Shown here piece by piece: positions 1 to 16,335 of a stretch of DNA of 64,000 nt. Each line of letters opens with the position of its first letter. The stretch's first letter is position 1. The translations under genes were made by a program, and so were the position numbers. This DNA is from Pseudomonas sp. Seg1 (GTDB taxonomy: Bacteria > Pseudomonadota > Gammaproteobacteria > Pseudomonadales > Pseudomonadaceae). The notes below the pieces were generated by a model. The model was given only the letters and a program-made list of their open reading frames with translations. It did no database searches and was not told the origin of the DNA. The stretch lies in the NCBI RefSeq assembly GCF_018326005.1, contig NZ_AP021903.1, positions 6,445,501 through 6,509,500 of the forward strand, written 5' to 3'.

Positions 1-766
1 GGGTGATGTGAATGCGGAATTTGCCGCTGCGGTCGCGCACCTGCTCGCCGAGCACCAGGTCCTCGCCGAGCACGCTGTTGTCGCGACCCAAACGATTGCG
101 CTGCTCTTCGAGAATTTCCACGCGACGCTCGATGCACTGCTCGATGACCAGGTCTTCGTGCTTGAAGTAGTAACGCAGCACGGCTTCGATCAACGCCGCC
201 GAGTGCGCCCGCAAGCTGAGCAGGCCGAGGTACGGCAGCAGGCGTTTCCAGTTGAGCTCCTTGGCCTTGCGGATCTCGTCGCCGCCCAGGCCGATCAGTG
301 CGAACAGCTGCGACGAGAACGGGTCGATCGCACCGCTCTGGAAGCTCGCGCGATAGCGGTATTTGCGCCAGATCGGCAGCATCAGCCGTTGCAGACGATG
401 GTGGAACAGGTCGAGGAAGTTGCGCGTCGGGTTGCCGTCTTCGCTGTCGCCCAACGCCTGTTCGCCGTAGAACGCCGGCAACGGCGAACCCGAGCCGACC
501 AGGCCGATCAGGTTGAATCGCATGCGCGCGCGCATCTGCCCGTGCTCTTCGAAAAACTCCACGCGATCGACATCGCTGCGCGGAAAGCCCAGGCTCGGGT
601 TGGCCTGGAACTCAACCTGATCGTACAGATCGTCTTCGCTCAGGTGCGGGTGTGCCTCGCGCAGCCGGTCGATCACCAGCAGCACGGCCTGAAACAGCGA
701 GTACTCGCGTATTACCTTCGTCAGCCCGCTTAAAGCAGGGGCTGCAGGCCCATACGTGGTGTCCAT
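1..766 (-). CDS. tssG: T6SS baseplate protein TssG (partial, C-terminus off window)
   Basis: TssG (ImpH/VasB family) is a T6SS baseplate wedge subunit that works with TssF, TssE and TssK in the cytoplasm beneath the membrane complex. The translation reads MDTTYGPAAPALSGL..., then the family-typical Y-S-L-F-Q-A-V-L-L segment and F-N-L-I-G-L-V-G-S-G-S-P-L-P near residue 90, and remains open to the window edge (255 codons). The ATG at 766 is chosen because GGAGAGG lies about 7 nt upstream. The gene begins inside the end of tssF, overlapping it by 37 nt in another frame, so the two are probably translationally coupled. The end is cut by the window. Confidence 0.9.
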   Translation of the reverse strand, partial: MDTTYGPAAPALSGLTKVIREYSLFQAVLLVIDRLREAHPHLSEDDLYDQVEFQANPSLGFPRSDVDRVEFFEEHGQMRARMRFNLIGLVGSGSPLPAFYGEQALGDSEDGNPTRNFLDLFHHRLQRLMLPIWRKYRYRASFQSGAIDPFSSQLFALIGLGGDEIRKAKELNWKRLLPYLGLLSLRAHSAALIEAVLRYYFKHEDLVIEQCIERRVEILEEQRNRLGRDNSVLGEDLVLGEQVRDRSGKFRIHIT

Positions 767-2517
767 TGGTACACCTCTCCCTGTGTGCTTTTTACGCGCA
801 ACTCGTGAAACGAATTGAGACTGGCGTAAAGCGCGAAAAACTCGTTAAGAACCGAGGCGAAAACGAACAGGTCGCCTTCGCCGATGTACCCTTCCGGGTC
901 GATGGTCAGTTCGGTGCGCAAACCGCGCACCGGCAGGCCACGGTGCAGCCGATCGACGTGGTGATGCTTGATGTGCTTGAGGCCGCCGAGCAGGCGTTTG
1001 CTGACCTTCTCCGCGTGCTGGTCGTAGTAACGCGGCAAGTCGTAGGTTTCGAGAATCACCTTCAACGCATTGACGTCGGCCAGCGACAGATAGTTAAGCG
1101 ACATGTTGCTGATCAGCTTCCACAGGAAGTCACGGTTCAGCGGCGGTGCAAAACTCGAAGTGGCCGGGGTGATGTTGCGGAAACTCAAGAACTCCGGGGT
1201 CTCTTCGCAGGCCATGCAGATGTCGCCGAGCTTGAGCTTGCGCGGCAGGTTCTGGTTGGTGCACATCAGCTCGATCGACAGGGTTTCGTGGGCCTCGGTG
1301 TGGCGAATGCCGAAGCTCAGGTAAGTGTCGAGGCCATCGTGCAGCAGCGACGAACGCTGGCGGATGCTGTAATGCGGACGGCTGTTGGGCACGTCGAAAC
1401 TCGGGTCGTGCTCGAACGACTCGAACGGCACGTACTCCTGATAACCGAGGCCGCCGGGCTTCCAGCCAGTCACGGTTTCCACCGAGAACACACCGCAGTT
1501 TTCCAGATCGTATTCCGCCGGCAGCAACAGATATTCGTCCTGCTTGCCGTCGAGGCGGATCGGCAGTGCGTCGTGCGCGAACAGGTTGGCAATCGGCGTG
1601 CAGAACAGCTTCACGTTATCCAGGGTCGGACGCATGCGCATGATCCCGCTCTTGCGGATATCAAAACGCAATTCCAGGCCGCGCATCTGCTTGAGGGTGT
1701 CTTCCGGCAGCGCCTTGAGGATGTCCAGACCGTTGACGTCGACGAACAGGAATTTGTCCTGGAAGGCGAAGTATTCCTGCAGGTAGCGATAGCCACGGAA
1801 GGTGTTCAGCGGATACGGGATCAATGCTTCTTCTTCGGCAAAGCCCACCGGTTTGACCCGGTCACCAGGAATCTTGAACGCCATCGGCTTGCCGGCCACG
1901 CCATCGATGGGCTTGCCAGCGCCGTCGAGCGGGATCAGTTCGATGCCTTCAAGGTTGCGCAGCAGGCTCAAGTAGAGCATCTGGCTGATGTAACGCTCAC
2001 CGGCAAAGTGCAGGCGCAGTTTGCTCAGTTCCAGCTCACCGAGGTGGCCGTCGGCGCTCATTTCCAGACGCAGGCTGAGCAGCGAGCCGTCGCCCTTCAC
2101 CGAGTAGTTCAGCGCAGCCAGATCCAGCGGCAGCACTTCAGTCGGGTAGCAGGTGCGGAAACGGCAGCGCACATCTTCGATCGGCTTGCTTTCAATTGGC
2201 GTATCGCGCTCGACCAACAGCGCCGGGCCCGAGCGCTTCAGCGGATCGAACTGCAAAATGCTGAACGCCGGCAACGGGCGCATGTAGTTCGGCCACAACA
2301 GTTGCATCAGCGAATGGCTGAGTTCCGGCAGCTCGTCATCGAGCTTCTGACGCAGCCGCCCGGTCAGGAACGCAAAGCCTTCGAGCAACCGTTCCACGTC
2401 CGGATCCCGCCCGGCCTGCCCCAGATACGGGGCCAGCGCCGGACTACGCTCGGCGAAACGGCGACCGAGTTGGCGCAGAGCGGTGAGTTCGCTTTGGTAG
2501 TAGTGGTTAAAGGACAC
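730..2517 (-). CDS. tssF: T6SS baseplate protein TssF
   Basis: TssF (ImpG/VasA family), 595 residues, is the large baseplate wedge component that associates with TssG in the T6SS. The N-terminus (MSFNHYYQSELTALRQLG) and the P-x-L-A-P-Y-L stretch followed by D-P-D-V-E-R-L-L-E-G-F-A-F-L are family hallmarks, and the length is as usual. Start is GTG at 2517 with AGGT about 6 nt upstream. It sits directly downstream of the block of small membrane proteins and upstream of tssG. In other T6SS loci tssE and tssF are normally adjacent, so the intervening 3.6 kb is unusual. No defects were seen in the reading frame. Confidence 0.95.
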   Translation of the reverse strand: MSFNHYYQSELTALRQLGRRFAERSPALAPYLGQAGRDPDVERLLEGFAFLTGRLRQKLDDELPELSHSLMQLLWPNYMRPLPAFSILQFDPLKRSGPALLVERDTPIESKPIEDVRCRFRTCYPTEVLPLDLAALNYSVKGDGSLLSLRLEMSADGHLGELELSKLRLHFAGERYISQMLYLSLLRNLEGIELIPLDGAGKPIDGVAGKPMAFKIPGDRVKPVGFAEEEALIPYPLNTFRGYRYLQEYFAFQDKFLFVDVNGLDILKALPEDTLKQMRGLELRFDIRKSGIMRMRPTLDNVKLFCTPIANLFAHDALPIRLDGKQDEYLLLPAEYDLENCGVFSVETVTGWKPGGLGYQEYVPFESFEHDPSFDVPNSRPHYSIRQRSSLLHDGLDTYLSFGIRHTEAHETLSIELMCTNQNLPRKLKLGDICMACEETPEFLSFRNITPATSSFAPPLNRDFLWKLISNMSLNYLSLADVNALKVILETYDLPRYYDQHAEKVSKRLLGGLKHIKHHHVDRLHRGLPVRGLRTELTIDPEGYIGEGDLFVFASVLNEFFALYASLNSFHELRVKSTQGEVYQWTPRMGLQPLL

Positions 2518-2544: not shown

Positions 2545-2970
2545 TCAAAAAAATATCCTGTAGAGCGCAACCGTCACGCCGGCACAGAAGTAACCGGCGA
2601 TCAGGAGGTAAGGCACCAGCATGATCCAGCTGTAGGCCATGAAAGCGTCATCGAACGGGCCGGCGATCAGGCTGCACAGGCCATAAAGCATCCATGGCAC
2701 GGCGTAAAACGGGATGAACTTGACTGGCGCCCACCACACCATCCGTAACGCTTGTTGCTCATTACGGCTCTTCGCCGTCCGTGATACCCACAGGGCGAAC
2801 AACAGCAGCCCGGGCATGCCGAACCACAACAGATATACCCAGTGGGTCTCGGACGATTCGATTGTCGAGGAGTCGCCAATCCACAGGCCATAGGATGAAA
2901 ACGCCAGCATCAACAGCAATGGCGCCCACAAGGCCGCCATGAAGAAATTCAGTTGCGCGCGACTAAGCAT
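2545..2970 (-). CDS. Small polytopic membrane protein in T6SS operon
   Basis: Not recognised as a named family. It has 141 residues with about four hydrophobic segments (roughly residues 8-30, 45-62, 85-105 and 115-138), so it is predicted to be an inner-membrane protein with no obvious catalytic motif. The ATG overlaps the stop region of the upstream gene by 8 nt, and the stop lies 27 nt before tssF, so it is very likely co-transcribed and coupled. It is the last gene of the membrane-protein block between tssE and tssF. A role in T6SS immunity or assembly is inferred from position only. Confidence 0.75.
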   Translation of the reverse strand: MLSRAQLNFFMAALWAPLLLMLAFSSYGLWIGDSSTIESSETHWVYLLWFGMPGLLLFALWVSRTAKSRNEQQALRMVWWAPVKFIPFYAVPWMLYGLCSLIAGPFDDAFMAYSWIMLVPYLLIAGYFCAGVTVALYRIFF

Positions 2971-3409
2971 GGTCGGCCCCCGAAGCAGTCACGCTGGCCG
3001 CTGCTTGCCCGAGTGCCGGGCTCTTGCCAGCCATGGGTTTGCGCGTGTACCAGCGGTCCAGCCCGGTGCAGAGAAGAATCGCCGCCAAGGTGAAGGTCCC
3101 TTGACCGACGCCATACAGCAGCGCCCGCAGCGGGTGATCCGGCAGCATCCACAACAGCACCAGCGTCACCCAGATCGCCCACAACACCAGCTTCACGCGC
3201 AGGACCAGAATCATCGCCAGCAGCCAGTTGAACACCAGAAAAAACTCGTAGAGGAATTTGCTGGTCAGGCGAATGTTCACGCCACGCGAGGTCAAACTGC
3301 CGTAGGTGGAGATGTACCAGTCGGCCGCGAAGTTGTTGAGCAACGTGTAACCCACACAGAAAACTGTGTGGATCAACAGGCAGCAGATCAGTCGGGCCGG
3401 CAGGTTCAT
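2963..3409 (-). CDS. Four-TM membrane protein, paralogue of the N-terminal half of the 4740-5522 product
   Basis: This is a 148-residue protein starting MNLPARLICCLL, with about four hydrophobic segments. It shares L-T-S-R-G-V near residue 38 and a L-P-x-x-P-x-R-x-L-x-Y motif near residue 95 with the first 130 residues of the 260-residue protein encoded at 4740-5522, with the same order of membrane segments; I read them as paralogues. The ATG at 3409 overlaps the upstream stop as ATGA, which decides this start over in-frame codons further upstream. The function is unknown. The position inside a T6SS operon suggests an immunity-like or accessory membrane role, which is inference. Confidence 0.75.
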   Translation of the reverse strand: MNLPARLICCLLIHTVFCVGYTLLNNFAADWYISTYGSLTSRGVNIRLTSKFLYEFFLVFNWLLAMILVLRVKLVLWAIWVTLVLLWMLPDHPLRALLYGVGQGTFTLAAILLCTGLDRWYTRKPMAGKSPALGQAAASVTASGADHA

Positions 3410-3627
3410 GCGACAGGCAACGATGAGTAGTAACCGCCGGCAATTTCGATGGCGACCAACGCCACCAGCACCGAGAACGTCAAGGCGCGATGCAGCCATG
3501 ACTGACGCAGGCGCTTGCTGATCGCCGTGACAAGTAGCAGAAAACTCAGGATCGCGATGCTGCCGAACAGATCGCTGTCGATCATGAAGATCAGGTACGA
3601 GCGCATCTCATCCGATACGTCGATCAT
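3406..3627 (-). CDS. 73-residue membrane protein in T6SS operon
   Basis: Small protein (MIDVSDEMRSYLIF...) with two hydrophobic stretches, about residues 14-33 and 43-62, separated by a basic loop (S-K-R-L-R-Q). The start is the ATG at 3627, which overlaps the lipoprotein stop as ATGA; the gene itself ends in an ATGA overlap with the next. Its C-terminal third (W-L-H-R-A-L followed by a hydrophobic helix) resembles a 33-residue remnant encoded at 5515-5616 in front of the paralogous gene at 4740-5522. That suggests an ancestral two-gene module, small protein plus four-TM protein, that was duplicated. Family unknown to me. Confidence 0.7.
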   Translation of the reverse strand: MIDVSDEMRSYLIFMIDSDLFGSIAILSFLLLVTAISKRLRQSWLHRALTFSVLVALVAIEIAGGYYSSLPVA

Positions 3628-4019
3628 GGGCAAAACACTCCTTCCTTGAGAGTCCAGCTGCGCTGCAGTCCATCGCGCTCGCGTTTGATGTCGAGCAAGG
3701 CCTGGCGCATTTCATCGGCACTGACCAGGCGCGTGCGTTGCGGCCCTTTCACCGTGAGCGAATAGCGGCAGCTGACCTGCCCATCGACGTCTTCGCCGTA
3801 GGACCGGTAACTGGCCACGCTGACTCGCTCGCCCGGCGCAACCACACGCGGTTCCAATGGCGGCAGCCAGTTGGTCGCGTGCTGCGCTTGTACTTCAAGC
3901 GGTACACCACAGGTGTTGACCAGGTAAATATCATTCATATAAACCAACTGCGTCGTGCAGCCCGCCAACAACAGGGCGGCCACCGCCGACAGCGATTTCC
4001 TGCAGGTGCCAAATTTCAC
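3624..4019 (-). CDS. Putative lipoprotein in T6SS operon
   Basis: A 131-residue product with a signal peptide and lipobox (A-A-L-L-L-A-G-C-T, Cys about residue 21), so probably a periplasm-facing lipoprotein. The mature part is soluble and contains two further cysteines (N-T-C-G and Q-V-S-C-R) and a C-terminal cysteine, which could form disulfides. The start is GTG at 4019, overlapping the previous stop as GTGA. It is not TssJ by any motif I can see, because TssJ genes usually sit beside tssK or tssL. It could be a periplasmic immunity lipoprotein; position and topology are the only support. Confidence 0.75.
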   Translation of the reverse strand: MKFGTCRKSLSAVAALLLAGCTTQLVYMNDIYLVNTCGVPLEVQAQHATNWLPPLEPRVVAPGERVSVASYRSYGEDVDGQVSCRYSLTVKGPQRTRLVSADEMRQALLDIKRERDGLQRSWTLKEGVFCP

Positions 4020-4402
4020 TGAGCGCGCCCTCCCTTGCTGGCGGTGATCGGCACATACGAGTCGATGAAGAGGTATTCACCGTCGGAAGCACTGACACGG
4101 TTCATCGTCAACGGCTTGCCATCGTGAGTGGCGAAGCGCACCCAGCCTGCTTTGACGAGACTGCCGCCCTCTGAGCGCACCTCGATGAAGTAGTCCGGCG
4201 GCATCGACCGGGTAATTTCGATGAAGTCGCCACCATCCTCAGCACCCCGCCACACCGCGTCGGGGTAACCGGGCAATACCGGCTTTTTCGAGTGACTCCA
4301 GCTCAATTTGATCGCGACCATCACGACGGCGATGATGGCCAATGCTCCGATAAGGCTCAGCAGGTGATTGAGCCATTTCCACACACGCGGCCAAGGCATC
4401 AT
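4016..4402 (-). CDS. Single-TM anchored periplasmic-domain protein in T6SS operon
   Basis: This 128-residue protein starts MMPWPRVWKWLN at an ATG overlapping the upstream stop (ATGA). There is one N-terminal hydrophobic segment at about residues 14-36 with basic residues on both sides, followed by a soluble domain containing Y-F-I-E-V-R-S-E-G-G-S-L near residue 75. That stretch loosely resembles the F-F-R-V-Y-x-x-D-G-x-L-L motif of the proteins encoded at 4740-5522 and 5682-6125, so a distant common origin is possible. No enzyme motif was recognised. Predicted to be anchored in the inner membrane and to face the periplasm. Confidence 0.7.
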   Translation of the reverse strand: MMPWPRVWKWLNHLLSLIGALAIIAVVMVAIKLSWSHSKKPVLPGYPDAVWRGAEDGGDFIEITRSMPPDYFIEVRSEGGSLVKAGWVRFATHDGKPLTMNRVSASDGEYLFIDSYVPITASKGGRAQ

Positions 4403-4749
4403 GGCGTGCACCATGTGCGCACATCACGCTTGTCGAAGCCTGCGCACTGGTTGTTTTTGGCGATCAGGCGGTAGGCGTTTTCAGGGCTGTAGGCAAAGTG
4501 GTAGTAATTCACCCGGTCCTCACCGTAGAGCCAGTACGACGAGGAGCCTTGATTGATTTCGTAAGGTTCGAAGGCCCAGATCGACGACTCTTGCGGGATG
4601 AAGTTGCTCCGTTCCATCAGCAACATCATCGCGTTGGAAAAAACCGGCGTCGCGAAGAGCGCCAGCGCCGACAGCAGCGCCGTCAGCCCGTAAAAAAGAG
4701 GCTGCCTGGCGAGGACGAGCAACGTGTTCAATGGCGTGATCAGGCGCAT
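4399..4749 (-). CDS. Single-TM protein with C-terminal periplasmic domain in T6SS operon
   Basis: This 116-residue protein starts MRLITPLNTLL, with a hydrophobic segment at about residues 15-35 and a soluble C-terminal part ending C-A-G-F-D-K-R-D-V-R-T-W-C-T-P. An upstream GTG at 4761 in frame is possible, but the ATG at 4749 is preferred. It overlaps the end of the preceding gene and ends in ATGA with the next. The ending, Trp-Cys near the C-terminus, recalls the W-x-V-P-x-C ending of the two neighbouring proteins. Function unknown; a member of the island by position and topology. Confidence 0.65.
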   Translation of the reverse strand: MRLITPLNTLLVLARQPLFYGLTALLSALALFATPVFSNAMMLLMERSNFIPQESSIWAFEPYEINQGSSSYWLYGEDRVNYYHFAYSPENAYRLIAKNNQCAGFDKRDVRTWCTP

Positions 4750-5522
4750 TCCGGCACCCACCAGTCTTCATAACCTTGCGTACCGGGATACAGCACTGTC
4801 GAGCCGCTGAACTCCGCAGGCCCACCGAAAATTTCAGTGACCCGAAAATTCCATTCGGACGATTCGAGCAGCGCGCCGTCAGCGGTGTAGACGCGGAAAA
4901 AGTATTCGCTGGCGAACAATTCGAACACTCGCCCGATCAATCCCAGCCTGTGATAGCCGGGCGCGTAAGTGACGAGATAGCACTCGCCCGAATCGTTCAA
5001 GTGTCGGGTGATGGGCTCTGCCGTTACGCCACCGAAAATCTTCAACCCCAGCAAAACGGTACATATGCATACACCGATCAGCGCGGTAATCAGCAGCAGT
5101 CGCGATGTCGCTCGACGCGGATGAATCGTCAGCGGTCGCCCGCCCGCCGGCCGGCGCCAGCGGCTGTACACCGAGTTCAGGGCGTTGCTCAGCAGGAGCG
5201 CGCCAACCGTCAAACCACCCGTGAGCGCGCAATACGCCAAACCCCGGATGGGATACTGCGGCAGCAGGTAAAACAGGATCGCCAGCATCATGAAAACCAC
5301 CAGACCGAACTGAATGGCCTGGCGCTGGATGAAGACCAGAATCAGATTAAGAGAAACGAAAAAATAGAAAATCAGGTACATCGCCATGCCGATGGCAACG
5401 CCACGCGAGGTCAGCCCGCCGACCAGCTGTTTGTAGGCCGGCACGGCATAGCCATTCAGGACGATATAAATCACGCACGCCAGCGCATGCACGGCCAGAC
5501 CGATGACTCGACGGCTATTCAT
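4740..5522 (-). CDS. Composite membrane protein: four-TM half plus anchored periplasmic half
   Basis: This 260-residue protein reads as two fused modules. Residues about 1-135 resemble the four-TM protein encoded at 2963-3409 (shared L-T-S-R-G-V and L-P-x-x-P-x-R). Residues about 145-260, beginning with another membrane segment, resemble the protein at 5682-6125: F-F-R-V-Y-x-x-D-G-x-L-L-x-S-S-E-W, then Y-P-G-T-Q-G-Y-E-D-W-W-V-P-E-C-A versus Y-P-T-V-S-G-Y-E-G-W-N-V-P-A-C-G. It is either a fusion of two immunity-like proteins or the ancestral form from which the shorter ones split. The ATG at 5522 overlaps the remnant ORF stop. No named family recognised. Confidence 0.75.
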   Translation of the reverse strand: MNSRRVIGLAVHALACVIYIVLNGYAVPAYKQLVGGLTSRGVAIGMAMYLIFYFFVSLNLILVFIQRQAIQFGLVVFMMLAILFYLLPQYPIRGLAYCALTGGLTVGALLLSNALNSVYSRWRRPAGGRPLTIHPRRATSRLLLITALIGVCICTVLLGLKIFGGVTAEPITRHLNDSGECYLVTYAPGYHRLGLIGRVFELFASEYFFRVYTADGALLESSEWNFRVTEIFGGPAEFSGSTVLYPGTQGYEDWWVPECA

Positions 5523-5616
5523 GCGCGATCCCGGCCATGGCTTTTTCAGCGCCCTCCGCGAGCGCCACGCAGGCGAGCGTACCCATCACCATGAGGAAGC
5601 GCTGTAGCCAGATCAT
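5515..5616 (-). pseudogene. 33-residue remnant related to the C-terminus of the 3406-3627 product
   Basis: The ATG at 5616 opens a 33-codon frame whose product starts M-I-W-L-Q-R-F-L-M-V and ends 8 nt inside the following gene. Its W-L-Q-R-F-L-x-x-x-x-x-L-A-C-V-A-L-A resembles the W-L-H-R-A-L-x-x-x-x-x-V-A-L-V-A end of the 73-residue protein at 3406-3627, and each lies directly in front of a four-TM paralogue. I read it as the degraded end of a duplicated copy; it could also be a functional short coupling peptide. Similarity is short and judged by eye. Confidence 0.4.
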
Positions 5617-5681
5617 TTCGACACAGTCCGCGCGAACGAATGGGGACGTAATGGGCGAGTCATCTCATCAATTTTCCAGAA

Positions 5682-6125
5682 TCACAACTTGGGATGACGA
5701 CTGTTCATTTCTTGACCACACGCTGGAACATTCCAGCCCTCGTAACCTGACACTGTCGGGTAGACCGCTCGGGTACCCAGCCAATACGAGCGCTCATCCG
5801 TGGTGAACTCGTTCTGCCAGAGCAACCATTCCGACGACTTCAACAACGTGCCGTCTTTGGCGTAAACCCGGAAAAAAGCTTCGCTGGTGAACATCTTCGC
5901 AATGCTTCCCGCGACGCCCAGCGCCGAATACTGCGGAATGCAGGAGCGGATGAAACAGGTTCCGGCTTCGTTCCAGTCTGTGGAGTACTCTTGAGCCAGG
6001 CGTGCCGCCGTCGTTTTCACGTAACAGGCAGCAGCGATCAGCGCAGCGCCAGCCAAGGCGACAAATAGCAAAGTGCTACGCCCCAACATTGCCAACGTTC
6101 CCCGGTGAACGGCGCTCCCTCGCAT
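5682..6125 (-). CDS. Single-TM protein with periplasmic domain, first gene of the T6SS island
   Basis: This 147-residue product has a hydrophobic segment at about residues 17-35 (L-L-F-V-A-L-A-G-A-A-L-I-A-A-A) and then a soluble domain with two cysteines (T-C-F-I-R-S-C) and the motif F-F-R-V-Y-A-K-D-G-T-L-L-K-S-S-E-W. That domain is clearly paralogous to the C-terminal half of the 260-residue protein at 4740-5522. The start at 6125 lies 4 nt after the tssE stop; an internal ATG at 6089 preceded by GGGGAA is an alternative. Probably a periplasm-facing inner-membrane protein. Its role is unknown; an immunity role is a guess from context. Confidence 0.75.
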   Translation of the reverse strand: MRGSAVHRGTLAMLGRSTLLFVALAGAALIAAACYVKTTAARLAQEYSTDWNEAGTCFIRSCIPQYSALGVAGSIAKMFTSEAFFRVYAKDGTLLKSSEWLLWQNEFTTDERSYWLGTRAVYPTVSGYEGWNVPACGQEMNSRHPKL

Positions 6126-6129
6126 GGTC

Positions 6130-6537
6130 CTAATTCACCTTCACTTGCCCGCTGCCATCCAGGCGCGCGGAAAAACTGACCTGACGCTTGAAACCTTCAA
6201 CTTCCAGCAGGCCTTCGATACTGAAGGACAGGCGAAGCTGATCGTGATCACGCGGCAGGGAAATGACACGCACGTTGCTCAGGCGCGGCTCGTAGGCTTC
6301 GATGAAGTTTTCGATGGCCAGACGGGCCTGACTCAGGGAGTCGTGCAGGCTCAGACGCATGTCATTGAGATCGGGCAACCCGTAGTCGGACAGCGTTTGC
6401 ACGCTGCCCGCCCGGGTGCTGAGCATTTTGGCCAGATGGGCAGCCACCGACGCCATGGCAGAAACCTCAAGGCTCTTGCCATTGCGTAGTTCCGCGTCGC
6501 CATTAAGGCGTTCGAAAAGGCTGCCGTATCCGTCCAT
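6130..6537 (-). CDS. tssE: T6SS baseplate protein TssE (gp25-like)
   Basis: TssE is the gp25/lysozyme-like baseplate subunit that initiates sheath polymerisation. The 135-residue product begins MDGYGSLFERLNGD and contains L-S-D-Y-G-L-P-D-L-N-D near residue 52 and the core Y-E-P-R-L-S-N-V-R-V near residue 84, where the E-P-R-L triad is the conserved signature of gp25-family proteins. Length is typical. It follows tssC by 9 nt, so co-transcription is expected. No hcp gene separates tssC from tssE as it does in some Pseudomonas T6SS clusters. Confidence 0.95.
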   Translation of the reverse strand: MDGYGSLFERLNGDAELRNGKSLEVSAMASVAAHLAKMLSTRAGSVQTLSDYGLPDLNDMRLSLHDSLSQARLAIENFIEAYEPRLSNVRVISLPRDHDQLRLSFSIEGLLEVEGFKRQVSFSARLDGSGQVKVN

Positions 6538-10146: not shown

Positions 10147-10863
10147 CCATGGCCTTTATTTAGGATTACGGTCATGCGCCTATTGGAGTTGCCGCGGCGC
10201 TGGACAGTATCGAAGAGCAGTGACGTAACTCATCCAATTGAGTGTGTGCTCTTTCAAGTGGGCGCATCGTAATCACTATGATGGCCACTAGCAAGCATCT
10301 GATCAAACAACAAGACGAAGTGTTCATTGGCGTCTGTAAGAGATCACCCTATATTCGACAGGGGAATCCCTGATAGCGATTTATATTGCGCACATTTGTC
10401 TTCCTCCCTCACAACCCTTGAGCCAGAGCGGCCCGATCAAGCCTGACCGCATCGCCCCGAACGCGGGTCTCTTTATGCGGCGCCAAGCATGACAACTCTC
10501 GAAAAAAATAGAAGTAGGACTCTTCCGAAAATTCTTGCACTTCTATTAACCATTCACCGGCGACAACGCCCAACAAAAAAAGTGCCATCAATTTGATGGC
10601 ATTTCATTTTTCTGAAAGTTTCACCGAACCGGCAATACTGCACATCAGTGCCAACTCAATAATTATCGAAGTGCCCTCCTACAGTCTTCTCCTTCAAATT
10701 TATCCCGCACTTTCACACCCGGAATGCTCTGACAAATGTCAGAGATACTTCTTACATCAATTTATTTCCCGCGTTGCTAGCGTGCCTTGGCAAATTCTAT
10801 TCGCGTGGCGATCAAGGATGATCGGACACCGCGCATCGACTCACTTTGCTTAAGGACAAGCGT
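10147..10863. promoter_or_regulatory. Divergent intergenic region between tssA and vgrG
   Basis: This 717-nt stretch is more AT-rich than the genes on either side and has no convincing coding sequence; the two short frames in it (about 60 and 86 codons) lack recognisable features. It should hold the promoters of the tssA operon (minus) and the vgrG module (plus). A perfect palindrome lies inside at 10583-10601. I could not find a convincing sigma-54 site by eye in either orientation. Confidence 0.5.
10583..10601. other. Perfect palindrome TGCCATCA-ATT-TGATGGCA
   Basis: An 8-bp inverted repeat with a 3-nt centre, preceded by a run of seven A and followed by a T-rich stretch. It could be a bidirectional intrinsic terminator or an operator. 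A terminator is odd here because genes on both sides point away from it, unless it stops an unannotated transcript. Confidence 0.5.
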
Positions 10864-13800
10864 ATGTTCAGCACGGGCAGTTGCGCGCCTTTTATCCTGC
10901 AAATTCCCGGAGTTCGCCACGACTTTGAAGTGCTCGCGTTCGATGGCGAGGAAGCCATCAGTTGCCGATACGCCATCCGGGTCGAACTGGTCAGCGAACG
11001 TGCTGATATCGATCTGGAAGGCCTGCTCAGTCAGCCGGCGTTTCTGCAATTCGGGTTCAACAAAGAAGGCATCCACGGGCGCATTGAAGATGTGAAGGTG
11101 AGTGAATTCGGGAGACGCTTGACCCGCTATGAGCTGACGCTGGTGCCGGCGTTGCATTATTTGCAGTTCAGTCAGGATCAGCGGATTTTCCAGAATCTGA
11201 CTGTGCCGCAGATCATTGCTCAGGTTCTCCAACCCCACGGCATATTGGCCGATGCGTATATTTTTCACGTCTCCACCAGCCCGAAGCGTGAATACTGCAC
11301 GCAGTATGGCGAAAGTGATTTCGCGTTTATCCAGCGTCTTTGTGCCGAGGATGGAATTGCCTAGCACCACCAACACTCGTCAGACGGCCATTCGCTGGTC
11401 TTCACCGATGACCAGGTGTTCCTGCCAAAACTGGGTGCTACCGCGTATCAGCAAGACACGGGGATGGTCGCGGAGCATACGGTCATCAGCCGTTTCAGCG
11501 TCCGCAACAGCACCCGAACCAGCACGGCGATTCGCCGCGGCTATGACCTCAAACGCCCAAATCTTCTGCTGCAAAGCCGATTCACCGCTGAGTTCATCCC
11601 GGCGTTGGAGGACTACCGCTACCCGTCGCTGCTGGAAAACGAAAAGCACGGTAAACAGCTTGCCCGACAGGCACTGGAGCGACACCGCACCGACTATGAA
11701 TTGGCCGAGGGTAAAAGCGACCAGCCGACGCTACGCTGCGGCCATTTGTTCCAACTTGCCGAGCATCCCCGCAAGCAGTGCAATGTCCTGTGGCTGCTGG
11801 CCAGTGTGATGCACACCGGCAGGCAACCCCAAGTGCTGGAAGAATCAACCACCAGCGACTTCAAACCCGATGACGACTTCATCCAGGGTTATCGCAATAG
11901 TTTCTGCGCCATTCCCGCCGAGGTAGTTTTCCGCCCGCCTCTGCCCCCGCGTCGTCCACCACTGGTTGCCCAGACCGCGCGCATCACCGGGCCTGAGGGC
12001 GAGGACATCTACTGTGATGAGTTCGGTCGGGTGAAGATCGAACTTCCGTGGGATCGCGCCGAATTCAACAGTGAGCGCAGCAGTTGCTGGGTGAGGGTTT
12101 CCTCAAGCTGGGCCGGCGATCACTTCGGTGCGGTGACAATTCCGCGCATTGGCATGGAAGTCGTGGTGACCTTTCTGGAAGGTGATCCAGACAAACCGCT
12201 GATCACCGGTTGCGTAACCAACAAAGCCAACTTGCCGCCCTACACGTTGCCCGACCACAAAACCAGAACAGTGCTACGCAGCCATAGCTCGCCCGACACC
12301 GGCGGCTATAACGAACTGTCGATCGAGGATCGCGCCGGGCAGGAACTGATCTACCTGCGCGCGCAACGCGACATGGCGCAGAAAATCGGCAACAGCCTTC
12401 AACTGGAAGTGGGCAATGAACGTCGCGAAACCATCAATGGCAGCAGTTACACCCAGACTGGAAAGTCTTTCGATATCGAGGCCGGTCAGCAAGTGCATCT
12501 GAAGGCCGGCGCCAGTGTGGCGCTGGATGCCGGCGCCAGCATCACGCTGAAAGCCGGCGGCCATCACCTCGTGATCGATGCTGGCGGCATTTTCAGTAGC
12601 AAGGAAATCGAAACGGGCCGCAAGCCACACGACAGTGAGGCGCGCAATCTGCTGCTACCAGGCCTGGATCAAGCGTTTCCCGTTGCGCCAGCGGTCAACG
12701 CACGTGCAGAGGAAGAACTTGAGGAAGAGGAGGAAGAAGTCGACCTGGAGGATGAGACACCTGGGGGAATAACTTTGCGTATCGGCGTGTTTTTCGATGG
12801 CACTGGGAATAACAAGGCCAACAGCGAGACAGTCGCCGCGTGCTACGCCGCAGATGCCAATCTTGCGGAAGCGGCTGCAGAGATCCAGCAGCACTGCGCC
12901 ACCTACGGTTACGACGGAAACGGGAGTTCGCCGGACAACAGTTATGGAAATGATGTGAGCAATATTGTGCGGCTGTATGAGCTGTATACGGATCATTCCT
13001 TCGAAACACTGCCGGAGAAAACGAGAAATGCCTCTTTGCGCGTGTACATCGAAGGTATTGGCACAACAGCTGACGCAGGTGACTCACTTTACGCACAAGC
13101 GACAGGCCGAGGTGAGACTGGCGTATCAGCTCGTGTGGAGCAGAGCCCTGAAAAAATTATCGGTCAAGTGCGCTCACTGATCGATAAGAATCCCAATCTA
13201 CTTATAGAAAAGATCGAGTTCGATATTTTCGGCTTCAGTCGTGGTGCCGCCGCGGCTCGACACTTTGCAAATGAGGTTCTCAAAGGCGAGCGCAGTATTC
13301 TCGCAGATGCGTTTCCAGCAGGTTCTCCGGCACTCTCCAGCACCTTTGACTGGCGCCCGCAATCGAGCATCAGTATCAATTTCATTGGTCTGTTTGACAC
13401 CGTTGCAGCAATCGCCAACCCATGGCTGTTCGATTTTACCGGCGCTAACAGCAGAAACTCCGGACTCGATCTAAAGCTGCCTGATGGTTGCGCCAACAAA
13501 GTAGTCCATCTGGTTGCGCGCGATGAATATCGCGAGAACTTTGCACTCAACAGCCTGGGCGACATCGATCTGTTTTTGCCCGGCGCTCAATCGGATCTGG
13601 GCGGCGGCTACTTGCCCAGAGCCAAGGAAAAACTTCTGCTGAGCAACCCGATCACCAGCACTATCAGCCGAGACAAGGACGCGACCCGCAGTGCAGCCTA
13701 TGTTGCTGCCGAGAAAGAAGCATTTGCCTAGTATGCAAAAGGCGTCATCGAAGAGGACATCCCGGGCAGTCAATTGCGCGTGGCATTTTGGGAAAGAGCC

Positions 13801-14211
13801 GTGACTCAATCAGCACAAAAGGGCAGATTCAGTCCGGATCCCCAAAAGCGGGTTTACGGGGCGGCCAGCATTGAGCGGCCAGTACATGGCGAGCTGTCAC
13901 TGGTGTATCTGCGCATCATGCGTGAGCTTGCGGTCAGAGCAAATGTGCCGTTCAAGGTCATCCCAGATACGCCGAATCTGAAACTGCCCGAAGAGTTGGT
14001 CCCCATTCACAGGAAGCTCCAGTCCTACGCCTTGGGCGAGTCTCCCGTCGAAGGCCTGACTATCAAAGAAAGGGCATTGTTACGTAGCCGCTATATACAT
14101 CTCTCTGCTCACTGGAATGCGGCCAAGGGCTTGAACAGCAGCGACTTGAATATTGTTTTCATCAACCGACCAACCAAGAACAACCAACGAGTGGTGCACC
14201 CCCATGAATGA
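10864..14211 (+). pseudogene. vgrG: VgrG fused to a DUF2235 (Tle1-like) lipase domain, interrupted by two in-frame amber codons
   Basis: Read through, the frame encodes 1115 residues. It starts at ATG 10864 (AAGGA 6 nt upstream) with the VgrG gp27-like base and gp5-like OB fold (Y-C-D-E-F-G-R-V-K-I near codon 385; W-V-R-V-S-S-S-W-A-G after it). An acidic linker (E-E-E-L-E-E-E-E-E-E) leads into a DUF2235 hydrolase with F-F-D-G-T-G-N-N and the nucleophile motif G-F-S-R-G (Ser about codon 792). TAG stops lie at 11362-11364 (codon 167, where VgrGs have an aromatic residue before H-H; TGG to TAG likely) and 13729-13731 (codon 956). The coding frame continues unbroken on both sides of each. The catalytic His expected in P-G-x-H-S-D-x-G-G-G-Y is Gln. 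Likely a decayed antibacterial phospholipase spike. Confidence 0.85.
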
Positions 14212-14875
14212 CTTCACTCGACCTATCAGGAAAACAATGTACTTCCTTCTAGGCATATTATTGGCCGGCTGCGGACTAGACGTCTCCCAAGCTGCGGACA
14301 AGCGTCCATGGTTCCTTGGCTTTGGAGCACCGGACTACATGGAAATCTGGATTGAAACCGCCGATGTGGTGGATATTCGAGAGCGAGTATTCCGACGTGC
14401 CGGAGCCGGTATTGCTTCGGTAAGAGCTCCCGCTGATAACAAAGGCACGCCCGCAGGGTGGCCAGAAAACCCCGGAAGTGGCGCAGGGCGGGATATCACC
14501 GGCGCCGACCTGCCCCGCTTGATCTATGTACGATGGCAATCCCTGGCCGAACCTCAAACCTATGAGGCTTACATCACCATTTCCGAATCGGCTCGGGAAA
14601 TCATGCGTAAGCCGGAAAAAGCTTTCTGCAGGGCTGATGGCAAATGGATCACGGACTACCGCGATGACATCGGTATTGGCTTGGCCCCCGGCGGTATTGC
14701 AAAGGTCTGGCTAGGGGGCGCTTGCCTCAAGTCTGTCGAGATTACTCGGGTCGAAGGGAGTGCAATGAAGGAAGGCCCGTATCAAGGAAAAAACGAGGGG
14801 CGGTACGCACTGTCTCTATCACCTGAATCTAAAGCCTACATCGAAAAATTCGGCATTCCCTTCGGGAGCTGGTAA
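14204..14875 (+). CDS. DUF2931-type lipoprotein, probable immunity protein
   Basis: A 223-residue protein with a signal peptide and lipobox (L-L-A-G-C, Cys about residue 23), so a periplasmic lipoprotein. Its W-x-x-x-F-G-A-P-x-Y-M-E-I-W-I-E-T near residue 40 and the central L-P-R-L-I-Y-V-R-W-Q-S-L-A-E-P-Q-T-Y stretch match the DUF2931 family as I remember it. Genes of this family often follow T6SS DUF2235 lipase genes, which makes an immunity role likely; that is inference. The ATG at 14204 overlaps the last codons of the vgrG-lipase frame. The reading frame is intact although the effector gene upstream is broken. Confidence 0.75.
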   Translation: MNDFTRPIRKTMYFLLGILLAGCGLDVSQAADKRPWFLGFGAPDYMEIWIETADVVDIRERVFRRAGAGIASVRAPADNKGTPAGWPENPGSGAGRDITGADLPRLIYVRWQSLAEPQTYEAYITISESAREIMRKPEKAFCRADGKWITDYRDDIGIGLAPGGIAKVWLGGACLKSVEITRVEGSAMKEGPYQGKNEGRYALSLSPESKAYIEKFGIPFGSW

Positions 14876-16059: not shown

Positions 16060-16335
16060 TTAAGGATTAACGCTGTCTTTCAACGATTTGCCTGGCTTGA
16101 ACGCAACGGTGTTGCTGGCCTTGATTTTCACCGGTTCACCGGTTTGCGGGTTTTTGCCGGTGCGGGCGCCGCGGTGGCGTTGCAGGAAGGTGCCGAAGCC
16201 TACTAGCGTCACGCTGTCCTTGCGGTGCAGAGCGCCGGTAATTTCTTCGAGGACGGCGTTGAGTACGCGGTTGGCCTGTTCTTTGGTCAGATCTGCTTTT
16301 TCAGCGATTGCAGCGGCGAGTTCTGGTTTACGCAT
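16060..16335 (-). CDS. hupA: Nucleoid-associated protein HU
   Basis: HU-family DNA-bending protein, 91 residues, typical length. It shows the N-terminal M-R-K-P-E-L-A-A-A-I-A-E-K-A helix and the arm region G-F-G-T-F-L-Q-R-H-R-x-A-R-x-G-x-N-P-Q-T-G-E near residues 46-66, where Pro is the DNA-intercalating residue. The symbol follows Pseudomonas practice for the HU gene beside the rubredoxin reductase; hupB is an alternative name, so the paralogue assignment is less sure than the family. It is monocistronic, ending at the terminator shared with the convergent gene. Confidence 0.93.
   Translation of the reverse strand: MRKPELAAAIAEKADLTKEQANRVLNAVLEEITGALHRKDSVTLVGFGTFLQRHRGARTGKNPQTGEPVKIKASNTVAFKPGKSLKDSVNP

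Follow-up and report, generated by a model that had tools for sequence, protein, structure and literature searches.

In a 64,000-nucleotide stretch of the Pseudomonas sp. Seg1 genome (hereafter the window), the genes tssE and tssF of a type VI secretion system (T6SS) are separated by an island of small membrane-protein genes. We conclude that this island is very probably an array of orphan immunity genes, located at a site of T6SS effector turnover and shielding the cell against its kin. Sequence comparison documents the site and the pairing of the gene families with effectors; it also shows that most cognate effectors are missing and that the genes are under selection. The first-pass annotation of this DNA had proposed that the core operon here contains an array of immunity-like proteins, and this is supported, because the same families are encoded directly downstream of PAAR-linked effectors in relatives, in family-specific pairs; what it had missed is that the site is one of PAAR and effector turnover, here without an effector. 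The site is composed as follows.

6130-6537, minus strand: tssE, upstream border of the site (TIGR03357, E 8e-38)
5682-6125, minus strand: X1B (family I7_B), single transmembrane (TM) segment, module B; predicted immunity to the DUF6402-B effector subfamily
5523-5681, minus strand: scar between X1B and X2AB
4740-5522, minus strand: X2AB, in which complete copies of module A (multi-TM) and module B (which brings a TM segment of its own) are fused; predicted bivalent immunity protein
4399-4761, minus strand: X3 (family I12), single-TM; predicted immunity to effector E18
4016-4414, minus strand: X4 (family I8), single-TM; predicted immunity to a Tae4-type amidase
3624-4019, minus strand: X5L (family I6), lipoprotein with lipobox LLLAGC; predicted immunity to PAAR-fused HExxH effectors (E13)
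3406-3633, minus strand: X6, small protein with two hydrophobic segments; no effector partner by pairing
2963-3409, minus strand: X7A (family I9), stand-alone module A, multi-TM; predicted immunity to effector E14
2545-2970, minus strand: X8 (family I4), multi-TM; predicted immunity to effector E29
730-2517, minus strand: tssF, downstream border of the site (TIGR03359, E 4e-183)

We surveyed the tssE-tssF junction in 149 genomes of the genus Pseudomonas, using a TssE match threshold of E 1e-40 (G and L numbers below are our handles for genomes and loci). TssE was matched in 79 genomes (80 genes), and 79 of the 80 genes have a same-strand TssF neighbor at a distance ranging from 4 bp to 3.8 kb. 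The two genes had been described as usual neighbors, which holds for the 34 of 79 junctions with a gap of at most 300 bp and fails for the 45 that carry a larger insert. These 45 large junctions (the window and 44 others) were mapped with profiles built from their own gene clusters. A PAAR gene is present in 41 of them; 35 encode an effector (more than 40% of the profile covered) and, behind it, a small membrane or lipoprotein-type gene that belongs to the families of the window or resembles them, and the remaining ten have no effector. The cargo of this junction is highly variable, with 38 layouts among the 45 inserts, one of them without any recognized gene. In 17 of the 42 junctions with immunity-type genes, the last of these belongs to the X8 family, which often stands directly before tssF. 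The junction of P. chlororaphis EA105 (L118) encodes PAAR-DUF6402-B followed by A, A, X3, X4, X5L, X6 and X8; Pseudomonas sp. GM80 (L117) has the same tail from A to X8, with the PAAR gene cut after about 23 residues. PAAR is missing from four large junctions: the window, G011, G108, and the almost empty junction of G071 (476 bp). Judged by gene content, the tssE-tssF junction in this genus is a hypervariable site of predicted effector and immunity genes.

A fragment corresponding to the first 26 residues of TssF was found within the island at two loci, L032 2756-2830 (G008, 77% identity) and L068 around 2258-2335 (the G078 junction, 69% identity), in both cases just before an X8-type gene. 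The arrangement looks like the outcome of module insertion at the tssF start, with duplication of the beginning of that gene.

Representatives of the effector families include Pfam matches to PAAR (E 3e-18), DUF6402 (E 1e-66) and Tae4 (PF14113, E 5e-22); E22 has a sub-threshold match to an alpha/beta-hydrolase, E13 is fused to PAAR and has an HExxH motif, spotted by eye, and the E14 and E18 representatives match no family. The gene immediately following the effector depends on the effector family. It is of the X5L family after E13 (6 of 6 junctions), A (the X7A family) after E14 (5 of 5, and likewise in L120), of the X3 family after E18 (4 of 4) and I21 after E22 (3 of 3), and in the 14 junctions with DUF6402 it is I3 in ten and B in four. 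Single cases pair E29 with X8 (G047), Tae4 with X4 (1 of 1) and E47 with I15; in G139, remnants of E29 and E47 directly precede X8 and I15. When compared with shuffles that ignore shared ancestry, the mutual information between effector and first-position gene is 1.71 (n=35; shuffle mean 0.64, maximum 1.00), and the second-position gene shows no association with the effector (n=29; 4,306 of 20,000 shuffles as high). The caveat of shared ancestry is countered by the fact that the E13, E14, E18 and DUF6402 pairs each recur from TssF identities of 98-99% down to 76-81%. The DUF6402 effectors split by partner, I3 or B, into two subfamilies (16 of 16), with 22-31% identity between them and 39-96% within; the B subfamily consists of the four effectors with B in first position together with those of L116 and L118.

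Families of seven of the eight window genes are found in first position after an effector in relatives. The exception is X6, whose family is never first after an effector in the mapped junctions; near-full copies of X6 are present in G108, L117 and L118 and in the non-core arrays L078 and L080. Carried over to the window array, the pairing predicts two genes against DUF6402-B (X1B, and X2AB through its module B), two against E14 (X7A, and X2AB through its module A), and one each against E18 (X3), Tae4 (X4), E13 (X5L) and E29 (X8). The order of effector and A may extend beyond Pseudomonas. A plasmid of Vibrio aerogenes carries an annotated PAAR gene followed by an E14 homolog (42% identity), the end of which is overlapped by an unannotated open reading frame of 122 residues that scores 17.4 bits with the A profile, a score reached by none of 2,000 shuffles (the best non-A island protein scores 8.3). 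We regard this frame as a putative distant A-like protein, standing after the effector as in Pseudomonas.

The window junction itself contains neither a PAAR gene nor an effector gene. A search of the window genome (6.6 Mb, single contig) for E14, E18, Tae4 and DUF6402 returned no matches, while control genomes were matched; E29 was outside this search, and E13 was matched by its PAAR part alone. The same outcome was obtained for G011 and G108, whose junctions also lack PAAR, with no match to E14, E18, Tae4 or DUF6402 and E13 matched in the PAAR part only. Cognate effectors are thus absent for four of the six predicted specificities. In G019, G047 and G083, PAAR comes after the X1B homolog. 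The X1B domain of the window is 77% identical to the G019 copy, behind which PAAR stands; homology between the two genomes stops about 20 bp before the G019 PAAR start, and at this point the window has the scar, in which a 56-bp segment resembles the 5' part of an X3-type gene of G105 (86% identity).

Two further loci of this T6SS cluster carry VgrG genes. The plus strand of the window carries at 10846-13731 a fusion of VgrG with a Tle1-like phospholipase domain (PF09994), the reading frame of which is broken by an in-frame stop within the VgrG baseplate-hub domain (codon ending at 11364); a DUF2931 gene follows at 14153-14875. We take DUF2931 to be an immunity family for Tle1-like phospholipase effectors. 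Together with the PAAR-effector module absent from the junction, the broken VgrG-Tle1-like gene and its DUF2931 neighbor suggest that a second weapon was lost and its shield retained. At L122 48-5360, behind an intact VgrG gene, come a 744-residue gene and two small ones that lack a Pfam family; these may be an effector-immunity module of the same cluster that is still active.

The 3.6 kb between tssE and tssF, on the same strand as both, hold eight intact small open frames and one scar; the remnant reported earlier was recovered, and the accompanying count of seven intact genes is corrected to eight. On the minus strand the window has, in this order, tssA, tssB, tssC (by our reading), tssE, island, tssF. 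Just beyond the window the remainder of the cluster encodes TssK, TssL, TssM, a ClpB-type ATPase and a VgrG, as recognized by Pfam; the ATPase is ClpV by our reading, and Fha, TssJ, PppA and TagF were likewise assigned by reading alone. Because the core genes are present in the window and just outside it, the T6SS machine looks complete. None of the eight island products has a Pfam or NCBIfam match above the curated cut-off. All eight have at least one hydrophobic segment in a simple hydropathy scan (one behind a positive N-terminus in X1B, X3 and X4; several in X2AB, X7A and X8), which together with the lipobox of X5L agrees with the earlier description of membrane segments or a lipobox in every product.

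Two modules are shared among the island products: module A, a multi-TM unit with LTSRGV, and module B, a TM segment with FFRVYxxDGxLLxSSEW. Both motifs occur as first quoted, that of A in X7A and X2AB and that of B in X2AB and X1B. When X2AB was searched against the whole genome (E up to 10), the only other matches were these two island proteins, X1B through the C-terminal module B (E 1.4e-18, 36% identity) and X7A through the N-terminal module A (E 1.1e-15, 33% identity), so the proposed paralogy goes beyond chance. The A pair of the window is 32% alike and the B pair 34%, and the nearest copies in other genomes are 94-95% identical for A and 81% and 94% for B; since each copy is nearer to copies in other genomes, neither pair is a recent duplication. 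The window genes fall into seven families, representing several unrelated immunity types and not tandem duplicates.

Modules A and B are joined in one open frame in five genomes (the window, G011 (=L114), L113, G074 (=L115) and L116), and by name the relatives of the fused gene belong to Pseudomonas in 8 of 8 loci. Other fusions at the junction are A-I15 in G108 and X8-I15 in G078. With the assemblies read as they stand, immunity domains have therefore been fused at least three times at this junction. We estimated dN/dS against chosen relatives (identity above 50%). The 28 comparisons, which span all eight window genes, gave values of 0.11-0.46, with two X1B comparisons near saturation of dS and two X3 comparisons excluded because dS was saturated; X2AB gave 0.25 against G011 and 0.24 against L115.

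Families of the island are not confined to genomes with this machine. At the limits used, the TssE and TssF lineages of the window are unmatched in G007 and G096, each of which has a T6SS of another lineage. In both genomes an array of five copies (X6, X3, A, I3, A) lies next to an HU-like gene and a gene read as ubiA; these neighbors match the window at 16.06-19.5 kb, which places the array at the chromosomal address of the window T6SS cluster. A single A copy was observed at the same address in G015.

L078 9169-11947, L080 8908-11683 and L079 9561-9932: loci of the G007 and G096 arrays and of the G015 copy; the HU-like gene matches window 16063-16335

These results bear on the other reading offered by the first-pass annotation, that the island is a specialized membrane accessory of this T6SS subtype. 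Such an accessory would form or regulate part of the trans-envelope complex or baseplate docking. Location on the same strand, tight spacing, several gene overlaps and hydrophobic segments throughout would all suit such a role. However, the nine genomes in which TssF reaches 99% identity or more to that of the window (the window included) have nine different layouts, and in G058 and G129, with TssF 94% and 91% identical, the junction is reduced to 22 bp. An insert is not kept across the subtype either, given the 34 short gaps and the diversity of the other 45 junctions, and the G007 and G096 arrays hold A, X3, X6 and I3 families without the TssE/TssF lineage of the window. We consider an accessory role extremely improbable.

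Decay is another possibility, in which immunity genes were stranded by effector loss and have no present function. Gene loss does occur in such arrays, as the broken X1B and truncated X6 of G011 demonstrate, and the window scar, the PAAR fragment of L117 and the effector remnants of G139 point in the same direction. On the other hand, all eight window genes are intact, their dN/dS values are low, and the frame joining A and B is uninterrupted in five genomes, with 78% identity to the most distant one compared; we find it very unlikely that the array is mere residue. It is also conceivable that the genes are not orphan at all and that their effectors are encoded elsewhere in the same genome, which has seven PAAR matches, a second TssF, and a second VgrG in the same cluster with the 744-residue gene behind it, and in which E29 was not among the effectors searched. 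Four of the effector families are nevertheless unmatched there and a fifth is matched by PAAR alone, and this explanation seems very unlikely to us.

In relatives, the tssE-tssF gap is occupied by a PAAR tip gene, one effector and its matching immunity gene, and immunity genes against other effectors often come after them. Under the reading of an orphan immunity array, incoming PAAR-effector-immunity modules would displace the resident effector while the old immunity genes stay, and in the window lineage PAAR and effector would then have been lost, leaving eight immunity-type genes. The array most likely grew by the displacement model proposed for V. cholerae (PMC5361080), with PAAR as the conserved 5' anchor. 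Each product would be placed at the inner membrane or in the periplasm, binding or shielding against one effector family injected by neighbors, and X2AB would combine two antidotes in one protein. Neutralization, the order of these events and protection against competitors are what we infer from the comparisons. A further-reaching proposal, which we advance tentatively and with somewhat less than even confidence, is that the gap is a dedicated turnover slot in which past weapons are recorded as a stack of antidotes, partly fused (A-B, A-I15, X8-I15), that the window strain is defense-only there, and that X2AB alone neutralizes two unrelated effector families, E14 and a colicin M-like DUF6402-B.

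The catalytic motif of colicin M consists of Asp-x-Tyr-Asp followed by His-Arg. D-x-Y-D is conserved in the DUF6402 alignment (37, 37 and 36 of 37 rows) and is present in 14 of the 16 junction effector segments, in both subfamilies; no His-Arg pair was seen just after it, in a comparison made without residue-by-residue alignment to colicin M. The model of DUF6402-B is weakly colicin M-like; if the effector is of this kind, it would probably attack a cell-wall precursor and be countered by the membrane-anchored periplasmic domain of module B. A T6SS homolog of colicin M, DUF3289, has a colicin M-like structure and periplasmic toxicity, and its immunity protein DUF943 is predicted to have a TM anchor and to lie mostly in the periplasm (PMC11148199), as module B and I3 also appear to be. 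DUF3289, in contrast, is another Pfam family and is found in PAAR-, VgrG- or Hcp-type fused effectors, whereas DUF6402 is here a separate gene behind PAAR; the term DUF6402 does not occur in PMC11148199.

Orphan immunity arrays are already known from Vibrio cholerae and other bacteria. The acquired interbacterial defense arrays of Bacteroidales, which PMC10539506 also mentions, contain orphan immunity genes, can protect against T6SS effectors, and are mobile and recombinase-bearing. The window array resembles them as an array of orphan immunity genes and differs in that no recombinase family is found among the Pfam matches of its eight genes. In V. cholerae T6SS clusters, heterogeneous immunity genes are stacked, and for each there is a related strain whose cognate immunity gene it matches; effectors were displaced and old immunity genes retained, and paralogs are not each other's closest relatives (Kirchberger et al. 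2017, PMC5361080). The window array shares the stacking of mixed types, the match to cognates of relatives, and paralogs that are not mutually closest. It differs in its place between tssE and tssF, since the V. cholerae array occupies the 3' region of the cluster, behind a resident effector-immunity module, and also in that the module of relatives starts with PAAR and the window junction retains neither effector nor PAAR; excerpts of that account contain no description of a fused immunity gene. In Serratia, orphan immunity genes lie at the site of the Rhs1 effector module, downstream of it, and one protects against the T6SS toxin of another strain; unlike in the window, the Rhs effector, with its exchangeable C-terminal NADase domain, is still present (PMC10539506). 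A putative T6SS and contact-dependent inhibition (CDI) immunity islet of Salmonella Typhi consists mostly of orphan immunity genes, the genome encoding none of their effectors (PMC7400221), as holds for four of the six specificities in the window; that islet is a 14-gene genomic unit with CDI immunity genes, and the window array instead lies inside a baseplate gene operon. T6SS-2 of P. chlororaphis 30-84, perhaps of the same T6SS type as that of the window, has an in-cluster PAAR gene and effectors near vgrG and hcp genes, and its account includes, in excerpt, neither an immunity array nor a variable tssE-tssF junction (PMC9022076). We found no description of this junction in excerpts of PMC5363822, PMC7970981, PMC5361080, PMC9022076, PMC10539506, PMC11148199 and PMC7400221, which does not prove its absence from the literature. 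What sets the window array apart within this known kind is the place between two baseplate genes, the PAAR-led module in relatives, the effector loss and the natural immunity fusions.

The junction offers a comparative series, from module with cognate antidote, through module with orphans and PAAR remnant with orphans, to orphans only and no insert. The genomes in this series differ little in their core genes, so the displacement of effectors can be traced along with the retention of immunity genes. Partners are predicted for several families without a Pfam match and for DUF6402, and natural fused immunity genes are on offer. The island also cautions that membrane genes inside a T6SS operon need not be parts of the machine. 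Taken as a whole, the site suggests that bacteria lose weapons and keep shields.

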